Origin: Rhizobium sp. Q54
Lineage (GTDB): Bacteria; Pseudomonadota; Alphaproteobacteria; SMXS01
DNA length: 64,000 bases
Reading direction: 5' to 3'
Assembly: GCA_945907245.1 (NCBI GenBank)
Contig: CAMDTB010000008.1
Coordinates: forward strand, 1 to 64,000
Below, in pieces: positions 12,367 to 20,996 of the stretch (its first letter is position 1; each line of letters opens with the position of its first letter). Both the position numbers and the translations under genes were made by a program. Under the pieces are notes generated by a model. The model made no database searches. It had not been told where the DNA came from and saw nothing but the letters and a program-made list of their open reading frames with translations.

Positions 12367-13476
12367 CTAGCTCTTCTGCTGCTGCGCGGCCTTGTATTTC
12401 TCGATGTTGCTGATGGTCTCGCGGAAATTGTCGTGGGCCTGCTCCTTGCGGGGACGGCGGCGCAGCGACTTGTCGGTGATCTCGGGCGCCACATAGCCGT
12501 CATCGTCGTGGCTGATGTTGGAGCCCGGCGGCACGATGGCGTCGATGGCGTCGAGCGTCTCCTCCGACAGGATGACGTCGGCGCCAGCCAGCAGTCCTTC
12601 GAGCTGGTCGAAGGTGCGCGGGCCGATGATTGCCGAGGTCACCGCCGGATGCGCGGTGGTGAAGGCGAGCGCCATGTGCATCAGCGACATGCCGGCGTCC
12701 CCGGCGACCACGGCCAGCTTCTCGATCAGGTCCAGCTTGCGCTGGTTGTCGGCACGGTTCATGTCGTAGAGGTGCGGCTGCAGGTTCTGGCGCTGGGTGT
12801 CGTTCGGCGTGGCGCCGCGCCGCCATTTGCCGGTCAGCCAGCCCTGCGACAGCGGCGACCAGACGATGGCGCTCATGCCGTAGCGCTGGATGGTCGGCAG
12901 CACGTCGGCCTCGATGCGGCGGGCGAAGATCGAATAGGGCGGCTGCTCGGTGCGGAACCGCTCACGGCCCCGGTTCTCGGACACCCAGTGGCTCTCGACG
13001 ATCTGCTCGGCCGGGAACGTCGACGAGCCGATGTAGCGTACCTTGCCCTGGCGGATCAGGTCGGACAGCGCGCCCAGCGTCTCGTCGATGTCGGTGGCGC
13101 TGTCGGGCCGGTGCACCTGGTAAAGGTCGATGTAGTCGGTGCCGAGGCGGCGCAGGCTGTCCTCGACCGCCTTGATGATCCAGCGCCGGGAATTGCCCTT
13201 CATGTTCGGGTTGGCGCCGCCCATGGGCAGGCTGAACTTGGTGGCCAGCACGACGTCATCACGCTTCTTGCCGAGCGCCTTGCCGAGGATGGTCTCGGAT
13301 TCGCCGTGGGAATAGACGTCCGATGTATCGAAATAGTTGATGCCGGCGTCGAGCGCCCGGTCGACCATGCGGCTGCACTCGGCCTGGTCGCTGTTGCCGA
13401 AATAGCCGAACATGCCGGCGCCGAAGCAGAACTTGCTCACATGCATGCCGGTGCGGCCCAGAACCCGCATTTCCAT
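12367..13476 (-). CDS. Aldo/keto reductase
   Basis: FDTSDVYSHGESETILGKAL, DYIDLYQVHRPD, KVRYIGSSTFPAEQI. Confidence 0.93.
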   Translation of the reverse strand: MEMRVLGRTGMHVSKFCFGAGMFGYFGNSDQAECSRMVDRALDAGINYFDTSDVYSHGESETILGKALGKKRDDVVLATKFSLPMGGANPNMKGNSRRWIIKAVEDSLRRLGTDYIDLYQVHRPDSATDIDETLGALSDLIRQGKVRYIGSSTFPAEQIVESHWVSENRGRERFRTEQPPYSIFARRIEADVLPTIQRYGMSAIVWSPLSQGWLTGKWRRGATPNDTQRQNLQPHLYDMNRADNQRKLDLIEKLAVVAGDAGMSLMHMALAFTTAHPAVTSAIIGPRTFDQLEGLLAGADVILSEETLDAIDAIVPPGSNISHDDDGYVAPEITDKSLRRRPRKEQAHDNFRETISNIEKYKAAQQQKS

Positions 13477-13632
13477 CGCGTCTCTCCCCTTGGTCATTCA
13501 CGCGTGATTGTGGGCGGGGATTAGAGCAGGTCGCGAACCGGCCCGCAATGGCCGCGACCGGTTCCCCTTGCCATTGGACAGGTGCAGGTCTCTAATTTCA
13601 CGGGTTCAACTCGGGTGGGGGACGAAAGTCAT

Positions 13633-14511: not shown

Positions 14512-14810
14512 TCGAGAGCATCCTCAGCCGCGACTTCTTCCTGCACCCGGCGGCATGGCTGGCCATCGCCTTCGCCATGGGCGTCGTCGAACTGGTGATG
14601 CCCGGCTACCTGTTCCTGGGTTTCGCGACCGGGGCCATCGTGGTCGCGGGAGCGCTGTTTCTCGGACTGGAAGGATGGTTCACGGGCGCAACGGGCCTCG
14701 CCTACCTGGTGAGCTGGTTCGTGCTGCGCAGGGTGCTGAAGGCCGGCCCCAACATGCGCAAGGTGGACCGGGACATCAACGAGGACCCTTACAAGGGCGC
14801 GAAGGATTAG
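14508..14810 (+). CDS. NfeD-like membrane protein
   Basis: Short TM protein (GVVELVMPGYLFLGFATGAIVVAGALF) overlapping the SPFH gene by 4 nt, a known SPFH-NfeD arrangement. Confidence 0.85.
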   Translation: MIESILSRDFFLHPAAWLAIAFAMGVVELVMPGYLFLGFATGAIVVAGALFLGLEGWFTGATGLAYLVSWFVLRRVLKAGPNMRKVDRDINEDPYKGAKD

Positions 14811-15685
14811 CTGAAGAAATCCCCGATCGCCTTCGCCGTCTCCTCGGGCGCTTCCTCCGGGCAGAAATGGCCGCCCGGGACAGCTTGGCCGCGCACGTCC
14901 GACGCCCAGCGTTTCCAGGTGCCGACCATGCGGTCCTCGTCCCATTTGCCGTCGCGGTCGCCCCACAGGATCAAGGTCGGGCAGCCGATCTTGTCGCCGG
15001 CCTTCCGGTTCGCCTCGTCGATGTCGCAGTCGACCGCCGGGCCCGCCCGGTAGCAGTCGCAGGTCGCGCGGATGGTCTCCGGATCGGAGAAGCAGCGGAT
15101 GTATTCCGCCATGGCCGCCGGATCGAAGCGGGCGTTCTGGCCCGCCCAGGTCTCCATGGAATGGCGCAGGTAGTATTCCGGATCGGACCCGATCAGCTTC
15201 TCCGGCAACGGCGTGGGGCTGGCGAGGAAGAACCAGTGATACATGCCCACCGCGACCTTGCGGTTCTTGCCCGCCGCCTCGTACTGCTCGATGGTCGGCA
15301 CCACGTCGAGGATGCACAGCTTCTCCACCCGCTCGGGATGATCGAACGCCATCCGGTAGGACACGCGGGCGCCCCGATCGTGGCCGGCGACGCACCACTT
15401 CTCGAAACCGAGCGAGCGCATCACCTGCACGTTGTCGCGCGCCATGGTGCGCTTGGCATAGGTCATCTCACCGCCCGAGGGCTTGGAGCTGTCGCCATAG
15501 CCGCGCAGGTCGGGCACCACGACGGTGAATTTCTCCGCCAGCACGGGCGCGACCAGGTGCCACATCACATGGGTCTGCGGGTAGCCGTGCAGCAGCAGCA
15601 CCGGCGGTCCGGAGCCACCGACGACCAGGTTGATCTCGGCGCCGTCGGTGGCGACGCGCTGCTTCTCGAATCCGGGGAAGAACAT
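14807..15685 (-). CDS. Alpha/beta hydrolase closely resembling fluoroacetate/haloacetate dehalogenases
   Basis: LLLHGYPQTHVMWH, GHDRGARVSYR (Asp103, Arg104, Arg107), YHWFFL (His150/Trp151), CYRAG (Tyr212), GGHFCPEEAPEET (His273). Confidence 0.85.
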   Translation of the reverse strand: MFFPGFEKQRVATDGAEINLVVGGSGPPVLLLHGYPQTHVMWHLVAPVLAEKFTVVVPDLRGYGDSSKPSGGEMTYAKRTMARDNVQVMRSLGFEKWCVAGHDRGARVSYRMAFDHPERVEKLCILDVVPTIEQYEAAGKNRKVAVGMYHWFFLASPTPLPEKLIGSDPEYYLRHSMETWAGQNARFDPAAMAEYIRCFSDPETIRATCDCYRAGPAVDCDIDEANRKAGDKIGCPTLILWGDRDGKWDEDRMVGTWKRWASDVRGQAVPGGHFCPEEAPEETAKAIGDFFS

Positions 15686-16161
15686 CAGACGTTCAGGTAG
15701 AACGCGTGGTTCGGGTCCAGAATCTCCTGGAGCTCGATGACATTGCCTTCCGGGTCTCGCCCATAGGTCGCGCGGATGGAGCCGTGGCCCAGCTCTTCGC
15801 GGGTGGGCGGCGGGCAGTTGAAGGTCATGCCCAGCGTCTTCATGCGCTCGTATTCATAGTCGATGTCGGTGACGTCGACGCAGAAATGGGTGTAGCCGTG
15901 ATCGCTCACCGGCCGCCTGGGATCGACCGGCTTACCCACGGGCGTCTTGTACTCGAAGATCTCGATGTGGGTGTTGCCCGCCTTCATCATCACCTGCCGG
16001 CAGGACGAGTCCTTCAACCCGACGATGGTGTCGATGCGGGTCGAGCCCACTTCCCAGCCCATGGTGGCGACCACCTCGAAGCCGAAGCCTTCCTGGTAGA
16101 ACTTCACGAGACGGTCGATGTCGCTGGTGGCCAGCGCCACATGGTGGATGCCGCGAATCAT
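15685..16161 (-). CDS. VOC (glyoxalase/bleomycin resistance) family protein
   Basis: IRGIHHVALATSDIDRLVKFYQEGFGFEVV, HIEIFEYKTP, GRDPEGNVIELQE. Confidence 0.9.
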   Translation of the reverse strand: MIRGIHHVALATSDIDRLVKFYQEGFGFEVVATMGWEVGSTRIDTIVGLKDSSCRQVMMKAGNTHIEIFEYKTPVGKPVDPRRPVSDHGYTHFCVDVTDIDYEYERMKTLGMTFNCPPPTREELGHGSIRATYGRDPEGNVIELQEILDPNHAFYLNV

Positions 16162-16248
16162 TTTATGCTCCCCTGACGGAAATTCCGGTGGACAAGTCTT
16201 GGACGGGCGGCGGCGGCGGGTCAAGCCGGGTGTTGGCGGCTATGCCTC

Positions 16249-17571
16249 TCAGAAGATCAGCGTCCAGAACATCGCCAGCACAGCCACCGTCATGACTGCC
16301 GTCGCCAGCCAGCCCATGATCCGCAGATAGCGGGGCAACGTGAATCCTCCCATCACCGCCGGGCGGGCGCTCATGGCCATCATCACCGCCATGAGCGGCA
16401 CGGAAACCACGCCGTTGATGACCGCGGCCCAGAACAATCCCTTCATCGGATCGATCGGCAGCAGGTTGATACCGATGCCTAGCAATGTGGCCACCGCGAT
16501 GGTGCTGTAGAACGCCTTCGCCTCCCTGGGCTTGTAGCCAAGGCCGGTGGGCCATTGCCGCGCCTCGCCGACGGCATAGGCGGCGCTGCCGGCCAGCACC
16601 GGTATCGCCAGCATCCCGGTGCCGACGATGCCGAGCGCGAACACGGCCGACGCGAAGGGACCGGCGATCGGCCGCAGAGCCTCGGCCGCCTCGGCGGACG
16701 TCCCGATGTCGGTGATGCCGTGGACGTGCAGCGTCGACGCCGTGGTGACGAGGATGAAAAAGGCGATGAGGTGCGAATAGCCCATGCCCGCATAGGTGTC
16801 GATACGGATGCGGCGGAGTTCGTCTTCCGCGCCGTCGGCCGACTCGATCAGCGGCTTGGCGTCTGGATTGACCCGTTCGTCCTCGGCTTCCTCGGACGAT
16901 TGCCAGAAGAACATGTAAGGGCTGATGCTGGTGCCCAGCACCGCGACGAATCCGACGATGTAGGCCTGCTCCCAGGTGATGGTCGGTACCAGCGTATGAA
17001 AGGCGACCTGCCCCCAGGGTACATGCACCGCAAGGACGGTGGCGACGTAGGCCAGCAGGGAAAGCGTCGTCCATTTCAGGATGGCCACATAGCGGGCATA
17101 GCTGAGGAAAACTTCCAGCCAGACGCAGGTCACCGCGAACGCCACCACATAGACCAGCGCCGGACCGCCGATCAGCAGCTTCACCGCATCGGCCATGGCG
17201 GCCAGGTCGGCACCGATGTTGATGACGTTGGCGACCACTAGTAACCCGACGATCAATCTCAGGAGCGATGCCGGGTAGAACTGGCGGATGTTGCCGGCGA
17301 TGCCTTTACCGGTCACGCGCCCGATGCGGGCGCTGATCTCCTGAACCGCCGCCAGGAGCGGATAGCTGAACGGCAAGCTCCACGCCAGGCCGTAGCCATA
17401 CTGGGCGCCGACCTGGGAATAGGTGGCGATGCCGCTCGGATCGTCGTCCGACGCGCCGGTGATCAGGCCAGGACCGAGCAGCTGCCAGAAGCGGCGGGGT
17501 CGACGGACCGCGGGGTCGGGCCGCAGGTGCGCGGGATCCGCCGTCATCGGGTCGCGGGGTTTGTCGTCCAT
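16249..17571 (-). CDS. NRAMP/SLC11-like divalent metal transporter (non-canonical metal-site motifs)
   Basis: GPGLITGASDDDPSGIATYSQVGAQYGYGLAWSL, ADLAAMADAVKLL, GTSISPYMFFWQSSEEAED; about 11 TM segments. Confidence 0.88.
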   Translation of the reverse strand: MDDKPRDPMTADPAHLRPDPAVRRPRRFWQLLGPGLITGASDDDPSGIATYSQVGAQYGYGLAWSLPFSYPLLAAVQEISARIGRVTGKGIAGNIRQFYPASLLRLIVGLLVVANVINIGADLAAMADAVKLLIGGPALVYVVAFAVTCVWLEVFLSYARYVAILKWTTLSLLAYVATVLAVHVPWGQVAFHTLVPTITWEQAYIVGFVAVLGTSISPYMFFWQSSEEAEDERVNPDAKPLIESADGAEDELRRIRIDTYAGMGYSHLIAFFILVTTASTLHVHGITDIGTSAEAAEALRPIAGPFASAVFALGIVGTGMLAIPVLAGSAAYAVGEARQWPTGLGYKPREAKAFYSTIAVATLLGIGINLLPIDPMKGLFWAAVINGVVSVPLMAVMMAMSARPAVMGGFTLPRYLRIMGWLATAVMTVAVLAMFWTLIF

Positions 17572-17667: not shown

Positions 17668-19041
17668 CTAGACCGGCGGCTTCTTTCGCCGGACGTTGCC
17701 CATGATCACCCAGACCGCGAAGCCCTTGATGACGATGGCGACGAGGAACATCACCGTATAGGACGTGGCCTCGGCGAGCGCGCCGCCCAGGATCGGGCCG
17801 GCGGCGAACATGGCCGAGGCGACCATGCTGGCCAGCGCGATCATCATCGGCTGGTCGTCGCGCGAGCCGTATTCCAGCAGCAGGTTCTGCCCCGCGATCT
17901 GCAGGCCGCCGATGCCCACGCCCAGGCCGCTGAACACGATGGCCAGCCAGAAGAGACTGGTCGGCGCGATCAGCAGGATCAGCAGGAATACCCCCCACAC
18001 GGCGATGGATCCGGCGAAGGTCCAGGAATTGCCGAAGCGGTCGCCGAGGATGCCCCAGATCGGCGCAACGAACGTGGGCAGGAGCATGAACGAGATGGTC
18101 AGCACGCCCAGGCCATATCCGCCCAGCACCTGCCCCGAAGCGTCGAGCTCGTGCTTGACGTGCAGGATGTAGAACGGCGCGGCGGCGATGGCGAGCGAGG
18201 CCAGCGTGCTGCCGACCAGGTAGCGCTGGAACCCCGGCGTGCGCGTTTGCCGCGGCAAATCCTTCAGCCTCTGCATCAGCGGCGCCGGCGCCTGCACGTT
18301 GGGCGGCTCGGGCTCGCGGATCTGCTTCAGGCCCAGGAGTCCGATGGCGGTGAGGATGAATGCCAGGAAGAAGGTGCTGGCATAGCCGTTCCCGAGCAGA
18401 TTGTGCTCGATGAAATAGCCGCCGCCCATATAGGCGACCGCGGCCGCGACGATGCCGGCGAAGAAATTGCGAAAGCCCATCAGCCGCCCTCGGACGGCGA
18501 CCGGAATCAGCTTCGACACGGTGAACTGGAACGCCACCGACTGCATGCCGTTGAACGCGCCGAACAGCAGCAGGCACAGGCCGATCGTCCACAGCGCGAA
18601 GGTCTCGTCGGGTACGAAGCTGGGCACCTTGTAACCGAACAACGTCAGCCCGGTCACGCCGAAGCCGGCGATGGCGATGCCGAGCACGGCGACGCGCATG
18701 GCGCCGCCCACCCACATGAAGATCGGCACCACCCTCTTGCGATGCGAGATCATGTTGCCGCCGGGCAGCGAGGCCAGCGTCGCGCCGATATGCTGGGCGG
18801 CCAGCACCAGGCCGACGGCGGTCGGTGAGTTCGACAGGACGAAGAGATAGGCGGGGAGGAAGGTGGGCGCCTGCAGCAGCCTGAAACCGGTCATGCCGAA
18901 GACACCGTGCAGCAACAGCGCGAAATAGTTTCGCTTGAGGTGCCGGTTTACCTCGACGTTGAAGGCCTCTTCCGCGGCGCGCTGAAGATCGGCGTCATCC
19001 GTGCCGGCCTGCACCTGCTCCTCGCCCCGTGACTCGAGCAC
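17668..19041 (-). CDS. MFS transporter
   Basis: 12-TM profile with two 6-TM halves (GLVLAAQHIGATLASLPGGNMISHRKRVVP...). Confidence 0.88.
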   Translation of the reverse strand: MLESRGEEQVQAGTDDADLQRAAEEAFNVEVNRHLKRNYFALLLHGVFGMTGFRLLQAPTFLPAYLFVLSNSPTAVGLVLAAQHIGATLASLPGGNMISHRKRVVPIFMWVGGAMRVAVLGIAIAGFGVTGLTLFGYKVPSFVPDETFALWTIGLCLLLFGAFNGMQSVAFQFTVSKLIPVAVRGRLMGFRNFFAGIVAAAVAYMGGGYFIEHNLLGNGYASTFFLAFILTAIGLLGLKQIREPEPPNVQAPAPLMQRLKDLPRQTRTPGFQRYLVGSTLASLAIAAAPFYILHVKHELDASGQVLGGYGLGVLTISFMLLPTFVAPIWGILGDRFGNSWTFAGSIAVWGVFLLILLIAPTSLFWLAIVFSGLGVGIGGLQIAGQNLLLEYGSRDDQPMMIALASMVASAMFAAGPILGGALAEATSYTVMFLVAIVIKGFAVWVIMGNVRRKKPPV

Positions 19042-19131: not shown

Positions 19132-20358
19132 ATGTCCACCGAAACCGTCCCGGCAGCCCGGCGCCCTACGCCGGGCGTAAGGTTGACCTTGATGCTGGGG
19201 TCGCTGACCGCATTCGGTCCCATGGCGATCGACATGTACCTGCCGGCCATGCCGGCGATTGCCGCCGACCTGCACACCGATCCCGCCAGCGCGCAGCAGA
19301 CCATGTCCGTGTTCCTGATCGGCATGGCGCTTGGGCAGCTCCTTTATGGACCAATTTCCGACCGTGTCGGGCGACGGCCGCCGCTGATGATCGGCATCGC
19401 CGTGTTCATTGTCATGAGCATCGGCTGCGCCTTCGCCCAGACCATCGGCTCGCTGATCGTGATGCGGTTCCTGCAGGCACTGGGCGCCTGTGTCGGCCAG
19501 GTGCTGGCCCGCGCCGTGGTCACCGACGTCTACGACCGGCGCGAGGCGCCGCGGATGTTCTCGCTGCTGATGCTGGTGATGGGCCTGGCGCCGATCCTGG
19601 CGCCGATCGCCGGCGGCTGGGTGCTGGCGGTCGCCGACTGGCAGGCCATCTTCCTGGCGCTCGCCGTGTTCGGGGTGCTCGTCGGCGGGCTGGTGTTCTT
19701 CCGCCTGCCCGAATCCCGGTCCGAGCAGGTGGCCGCCCACGCCAGGACCGAGTCGCCGTTCCAGGGCATCACGGCGGTCGCCCGCAACCGGCACATCGTC
19801 GGCTATGCGATCGCCGGCGGCATGGGCACCGCGTCCATGTTCACCTACATCACCTGCGTGCCGGACCTGCTGATCGAGCACTACGGCATATCGCCCGAGC
19901 ACTTCGGCTGGTTCTTCGGCATCAATGCCGCCGGCCTGATCGCCGGGTCGCAGATCAACCGCCATCTGCTGAAGCGCCGCACCAGCCACGACCTGCTGAA
20001 GATTGCGCTCGCCATCGGCCTGGGACTGACGCTGATCCTGCTGGTATCGGCGCTGACCGGCATCGGCGGCCTGCCCGGCCTGCTGATCCCGCTGTTCCTG
20101 GTGATCACCTGCATGGGCTTCGTGCTGCCCAATGGCGGCGCCTCGGCCATGGTGATCGACCTGAAGCGCGCCGGTAGCACCTCGGCGTTCACCGGCAGCA
20201 TGTCATTCGCGCTGGGCGCCAGCGGCTCGGCCATCGCCGGCCTGCTCTACGACGGCTCGCCGATGCCCATGGCCGTGGTGATGACGGCCGCGCTCACCCT
20301 GGGCGTGCTGGTGCTGAAATTCGTGGTCGGCAAGCCGCCGGCGCTGTTGGCCGACTAA
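19132..20358 (+). CDS. Bcr/CflA-type multidrug efflux MFS transporter
   Basis: LTAFGPMAIDMYLPAMPAIAADL, QLLYGPISDRVGRRPPLMIGI, RFLQALGACVGQVLARAVVTD. Confidence 0.94.
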   Translation: MSTETVPAARRPTPGVRLTLMLGSLTAFGPMAIDMYLPAMPAIAADLHTDPASAQQTMSVFLIGMALGQLLYGPISDRVGRRPPLMIGIAVFIVMSIGCAFAQTIGSLIVMRFLQALGACVGQVLARAVVTDVYDRREAPRMFSLLMLVMGLAPILAPIAGGWVLAVADWQAIFLALAVFGVLVGGLVFFRLPESRSEQVAAHARTESPFQGITAVARNRHIVGYAIAGGMGTASMFTYITCVPDLLIEHYGISPEHFGWFFGINAAGLIAGSQINRHLLKRRTSHDLLKIALAIGLGLTLILLVSALTGIGGLPGLLIPLFLVITCMGFVLPNGGASAMVIDLKRAGSTSAFTGSMSFALGASGSAIAGLLYDGSPMPMAVVMTAALTLGVLVLKFVVGKPPALLAD

Positions 20359-20888
20359 CCGCGGCCCCACGACGGCGGGCGGACCGGATCGGTCTTGCCG
20401 TCCCATGTTTCCGACGCATTCTTGATGACATCGAACATCTCGATGTGCAGCGGATCGGTCGGCATCAGCTGGATCATCACGCCCGGCGCGTCGAGCAGGT
20501 CGATATAGGCGTGCGAATTGATGTAGCGGTGGCCAACCACATAGTTGACGCCGTCTTCCTTCAGCGACCTCAGCTTGCCGTCCACGTCGTCGCACCACAC
20601 GGCAAGATGCTGCAGGCCGCCTTCCGGGTTCTGCTTCAGGTAGTCGCCGTAGATGGTCGGGCCACAGTCGTCATAGGGCGCGATCAACTCGATCTGCTGG
20701 TCGCCCGAATAGGCGAAGGCCGCCTGGATGTGGCAGTCCATGCGCTCGCCGTAATGCTCGGCGGGCAGCTTGATGTCCTCGATCAGGTAGAAGGGGCCGA
20801 CGCCGCGCGCCAGCCAGTGTTCGATGCCCTTCTGCATGTCGGGCACCACGTAGCCCTGCTGCACCACAGGACCGAAGATCTTGCTCAT
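20355..20888 (-). CDS. VOC family protein (paralog of 25378-25929)
   Basis: SKIFGPVVQQGYVVPDMQKGIEHWLARGVGPFY, SGDQQIELIAPYDD, NPEGGLQHLAVWCDDVD. Confidence 0.88.
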   Translation of the reverse strand: MSKIFGPVVQQGYVVPDMQKGIEHWLARGVGPFYLIEDIKLPAEHYGERMDCHIQAAFAYSGDQQIELIAPYDDCGPTIYGDYLKQNPEGGLQHLAVWCDDVDGKLRSLKEDGVNYVVGHRYINSHAYIDLLDAPGVMIQLMPTDPLHIEMFDVIKNASETWDGKTDPVRPPSWGRG

Positions 20889-20996
20889 GTCGCTCTCCCC
20901 GTTTGACGTGGGGTAAGCCAAGCACTTTCCGGGGACGCTGTCACGCGAGACTGTGGGCGAGCATTGAGCCCGTTTGTTTCATCAATGAAAACCGTC

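Follow-up and report, generated by a model that had tools for sequence, protein, structure and literature searches.

A hydrolase of the fluoroacetate dehalogenase family translationally coupled to a VOC-fold gene in Rhizobium sp. Q54

The 64,000-nucleotide stretch of Rhizobium sp. Q54 DNA analyzed here (the window) carries a gene that very probably encodes a known type of fluoroacetate/haloacetate dehalogenase rather than a new kind of enzyme. The product almost certainly belongs to the fluoroacetate dehalogenase family, and taken together, the analyses allow the more specific assignment as a fluoroacetate dehalogenase of the alpha/beta-hydrolase fold (haloacetate dehalogenase H-1 type, EC 3.8.1.3) to be made with good confidence. 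The residues, fold, family, and conservation are established, and the chemistry and acceptance of fluoroacetate are those that characterized relatives would predict. Enzymes that cut C-F bonds comprise few types and are wanted for use against fluorinated pollutants, and the intact sequence described here is a usable candidate.

The gene is an uninterrupted reading frame of 292 codons, from ATG to stop, running from 15685 to 14807 on the minus strand (Table 1). An earlier sequence-only reading of this DNA had not given the strand, and the plus-strand reading of 14807 to 15685 was rejected as a shadow open reading frame. When compared with three congeneric orthologues sharing 91 to 95% amino acid identity, the gene had a dN/dS ratio of 0.10 to 0.11, and its GC3 was 0.91. 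It is a real coding sequence under strong purifying selection. A phage origin found little in its favor, with matches of 24 to 28% at most among the matches listed.

Table 1. The hydrolase gene, codons with predicted roles, and neighboring genes in the window
Feature	Position	Strand	Basis
Fluoroacetate/haloacetate dehalogenase-family alpha/beta hydrolase, 292 aa	14807..15685	-	ORF, PDB homologues, Abhydrolase_1, model, dN/dS
DRGARVSYR, codons 103-111: nucleophile Asp103, carboxylate-binding Arg104/Arg107, third Arg111	15353..15379	-	alignment, PMC7429986 motif
Asp127 codon, catalytic-triad acid (RPA1163 Asp134)	15305..15307	-	alignment
His150-Trp151 codons, halide pocket (RPA1163 His155-Trp156)	15233..15238	-	alignment
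Cys211 codon, beside fluoride-binding Tyr	15053..15055	-	homologue alignment
Tyr212 codon, halide pocket (RPA1163 Tyr219)	15050..15052	-	alignment
Trp248 codon, loop around RPA1163 Ile253/Gln255	14942..14944	-	alignment
His273 codon, general base activating hydrolytic water (RPA1163 His280)	14867..14869	-	alignment
VOC/glyoxalase-fold protein; start uncertain, conserved from about residue 22	15685..16224	-	PF00903, 1.5e-19
Aldo-keto reductase gene	12367..13497		
Nramp-like transporter gene	16249..17571	-	
MFS gene	17668..19041		
Second VOC-fold gene	20355..20921	-	

Searches of the PDB with phmmer placed the protein among enzymes known to break C-F bonds. The closest solved structure was 3QYJ (Alr0039, or NOS0089), with 53% identity and an E value of 2.6e-101, while RPA1163 structures matched over their full length at about 1e-88 (47% identity) and FA1 (1Y37) matched at 1.7e-72 (42% identity). 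Matches of this strength to 3QYJ and RPA1163 lie far outside what chance would produce. The next PDB relatives were Cif-type epoxide hydrolases, at about 1e-30. NOS0089 is reported to defluorinate both fluoroacetate and difluoroacetate (PMC11022551 Table 2), and RPA1163, FA1, and H-1 of Delftia/Moraxella to act on fluoroacetate (PMC11022551). The sequence-only reading had suggested "possible defluorinating or haloacetate activity", which appears well supported and, if anything, understated, given that the nearest homologue with a solved structure is reported to be a defluorinase. In a phylogenetic tree, NOS0089, FA1, and RPA1163 fell on different branches, although 20 of 40 inner branches were weak and the backbone was poorly resolved. 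Defluorinating activity thus brackets the family, and this bracketing by active relatives makes it likely that the hydrolase defluorinates fluoroacetate.

Profile searches and structure prediction pointed to the same fold. The Pfam match was Abhydrolase_1 (3.3e-26), and no NCBIfam model reached its curated cut-off; haloalkane dehalogenase models scored 48 to 69 bits against cut-offs of 241 to 466. A HAD-type haloacid dehalogenase was considered and rejected, as the protein matched only alpha/beta hydrolase Pfam families, with no HAD fold or TIGR01428 match. An AlphaFold2 monomer model built on a 37-sequence alignment had a mean pLDDT of 95.6 and a pTM of 0.94, and predicted an alpha/beta hydrolase fold with a helical cap as in RPA1163. 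Foldseek searches with this model returned 3QYJ and RPA1163 on top (TM about 0.95). In a partial check of whether the pocket assembles, as the sequence-only reading had asked, the model superposed over its full length on RPA1163 and NOS0089, with an rmsd of 1.1 to 1.8 A.

Alignment with RPA1163 paired every residue of functional interest (hydrolase/RPA1163: D103/D110, R104/R111, R107/R114, R111/R118, D127/D134, H150/H155, W151/W156, W180/W185, Y212/Y219, and H273/H280). The hydrolase therefore contains the Asp-His-Asp catalytic triad (D103, H273, and D127), two carboxylate-binding arginines (R104 and R107) within a DRxxRxxxR motif that R111 completes, and, by alignment, a putative His-Trp-Tyr halide pocket (H150, W151, and Y212). 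The segments that the sequence-only reading had singled out, GHDRGARVSYR (101 to 111), YHWFFL (149 to 154), CYRAG (211 to 215), and GGHFCPEEAPEET (from 271), were all present in the order it gave. Its numbering of Asp103, Arg104, Arg107, Asp127, His150, Trp151, Tyr212, and His273 was exact, and the roles it attached to them agree with published roles (PMC11022551). In FA1, the pocket Trp is reported to be required for defluorination but not for dechlorination (PMC11022551).

With these residues, the reaction would be expected to follow the scheme of the characterized relatives. Arg104 and Arg107 would bind a 2-halo acid through its carboxylate, with the halide cradled by His150, Trp151, and Tyr212. 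Asp103 would attack the alpha carbon (SN2) and expel fluoride or chloride, producing an aspartyl-ester enzyme, and His273, aided by Asp127, would activate water so that glycolate is freed.

The PDB titles include "putative alpha/beta hydrolase" for 3QYJ, "probable epoxide hydrolase" for 4BAT/4B9A, and "putative acyltransferase" for 4NVR, so that possible defluorinases among solved family members are obscured when only the database name is considered. It is very improbable that the protein has been mistaken for a dehalogenase and is really an epoxide hydrolase of the Cif-like or classical type, even though 4BAT/4B9A are close relatives (E about 1e-82) and the Cif-type enzymes, next in the PDB list, share the fold and the His/Tyr pair (PMC8244358). 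The DRxxRxxxR motif found here is the feature reported to tell fluoroacetate dehalogenases apart from epoxide hydrolases (PMC7429986), and in place of the aromatic residue that follows the nucleophilic Asp in epoxide hydrolases lacking this motif, Arg104 follows Asp103. The pocket Trp is also present, and the E values to reported defluorinases are lower than that to Cif by some 70 orders of magnitude. That the protein is an alpha/beta hydrolase acting as a general esterase, lactonase, or acyltransferase is scarcely credible. Lactonases and esterases do appear among the broad Pfam and NCBIfam matches, and the title of 4NVR fits such a role, but the NCBIfam matches fell far below curated cut-offs, the nucleophile is Asp rather than Ser, and both substrate arginines are there, as is the whole halide pocket; in 4NVR, by contrast, Trp replaces the pocket His.

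The fluoroacetate dehalogenase assignment places the gene in a widespread group. The full residue set (DRRRDHWYH) occurred in 61 of 66 aligned homologues, and about a quarter of a sample of genomes across the class (70/289) encoded a homologue at an E value of ≤1e-70. Some match was found in 1,442 plasmid records, spanning at least 80% of the query in 1,000 of these, and within the order, represented by one family and three genera, 9 of 10 genomes carried the gene. Judged from these alignments, this set of residues marks a large, common family and is not a special feature. The assignment is thus sound, but the family is common and the hydrolase has no claim to rarity. Family members that depart from the set include one with the halide-pocket His changed to Pro (locus L026, 1501 to 2373) and one with the Trp and the second Arg both changed to Leu (locus L051, 8001 to 8846), and these variants are useful natural negative controls for C-F cleavage. 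The chemistry of fluoroacetate dehalogenases is already understood; the locus bears instead on why such genes abound when natural fluoroacetate is rare.

Less ordinary is the gene immediately upstream, which encodes a VOC/glyoxalase-fold protein. Its TGA overlaps the hydrolase ATG by one base (TGATG), and the two genes lie side by side in all three genera wherever family genomes keep both. The hydrolase is translationally coupled to the VOC gene in this bacterial family, and no VOC partner was seen beside the hydrolase in the homologous loci examined outside it. The VOC protein weakly resembles methylmalonyl-CoA epimerase, below the cut-off. Two VOC paralogues with about 46 to 47% identity are encoded on other contigs (C3 and C105) of the genome.

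The conserved VOC gene provides a handle on the natural substrate, which need not be fluoroacetate. The same fold and Asp-ester chemistry could serve another small carboxylic acid that bears a leaving group on its alpha carbon, handled jointly with the VOC enzyme, leaving fluoroacetate as a side activity only. This possibility, to which we give somewhat less than an even chance, concerns physiological role and is compatible with a dehalogenase. It draws on the one-base overlap and the adjacency of the pair across three genera, and on near-universal presence in the order (9 of 10 genomes), unlike a niche fluoroacetate trait; yet such broad conservation could equally mean routine haloacetate detoxification, and the pairing points to no particular substrate. 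An aldo-keto reductase gene also recurs nearby, directly after the hydrolase in one relative (G008), directly after the VOC gene in another that has no hydrolase (G009), and, in the window, beyond a pair of SPFH genes that run in the opposite direction. Two residues fixed in this clade only, Cys211 and Trp248, are further points in favor of another substrate, while all residues known to act on substrate are unchanged.

The genes upstream of the VOC gene (Nramp and MFS) differed among species. An Nramp-like transporter gene lies between the VOC and MFS genes in the window, and likewise in G003 (L029) and G004 (L052). G001 (L028) has no Nramp-like gene, and MFS is next upstream of VOC, indicating gain or loss within the genus. 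A second VOC-fold gene lies near the cluster, and a distant homologue (about 30%) lies in divergent orientation beside the first VOC gene in G002, G007, G008, and G009 (L071, L073, L074, and L075). The absence of the hydrolase from G009 (L075) resembles a clean loss, but the assembly is 91% complete.

Cys211 and Trp248 distinguish the enzymes of this bacterial family from other homologues. Position 211 was Asp in 57 of 66 homologues, Glu in one, and Cys in only 8, which are the eight complete copies from this family; Trp248 was found only in the same 8 sequences. In H-1, the loop positions Gln245/Met246 control substrate range (PMC12955510), and these adjoin the loop matching the Trp248 region. 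On the basis of alignment, Cys211 and the altered Trp248 loop could change specificity. A stronger proposal, that the family enzyme has been re-tuned through these residues and works in a VOC-coupled two-gene unit on a natural substrate that is not a simple haloacetate, is unlikely. If true, the substrate could be a larger 2-halo acid, for instance, or one with another substituent at position 2, and the enzyme would be a fluoroacetate dehalogenase family member of altered specificity.

Elsewhere in the genome, one CrcB fluoride channel is encoded, not adjoining the hydrolase gene, and CrcB was widespread in control genomes (10/14). A glycolate-oxidase-like glcD match below its curated cut-off, with a weaker match beside it, lies on contig 55, also away from the hydrolase. 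Both products, fluoride and glycolate, could therefore be handled. No fluoride riboswitch, no malate synthase G (a glyoxylate sink), and no HAD-type dehalogenase above cut-off were found in the genome; HAD-II matches lie elsewhere, below cut-off. This gene content allows disposal of fluoride, and perhaps of glycolate, with no specific argument for fluoroacetate as a food source.

Compared with known systems, the hydrolase most resembles NOS0089/Alr0039 of Nostoc, with which it shares the triad, two arginines, His-Trp-Tyr pocket, and even the YHWFFL segment (TM 0.95). NOS0089 differs in having Asp at the Cys211 position, and its loop reads GEKGIIG, compared to GDRDGKW in the hydrolase. RPA1163 of Rhodopseudomonas palustris (3R3U) has all of the catalytic and pocket residues, including the tryptophan at Trp180/Trp185, and differs at Phe40 (Tyr35 in the hydrolase), Lys152 (Gly147), Lys181 (Ser176), Ile253 (Gly246), and Gln255 (Trp248). 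FAc-DEX FA1 of Burkholderia sp. FA1 (1Y37) shares the triad and pocket but is more distant, with DRGGR where the hydrolase has DRGAR. The Cif-type epoxide hydrolases have the fold and the His/Tyr pair in common with the hydrolase (PMC8244358), but lie much further away by E value, and its DRxxRxxxR motif is reportedly absent from epoxide hydrolases (PMC7429986).
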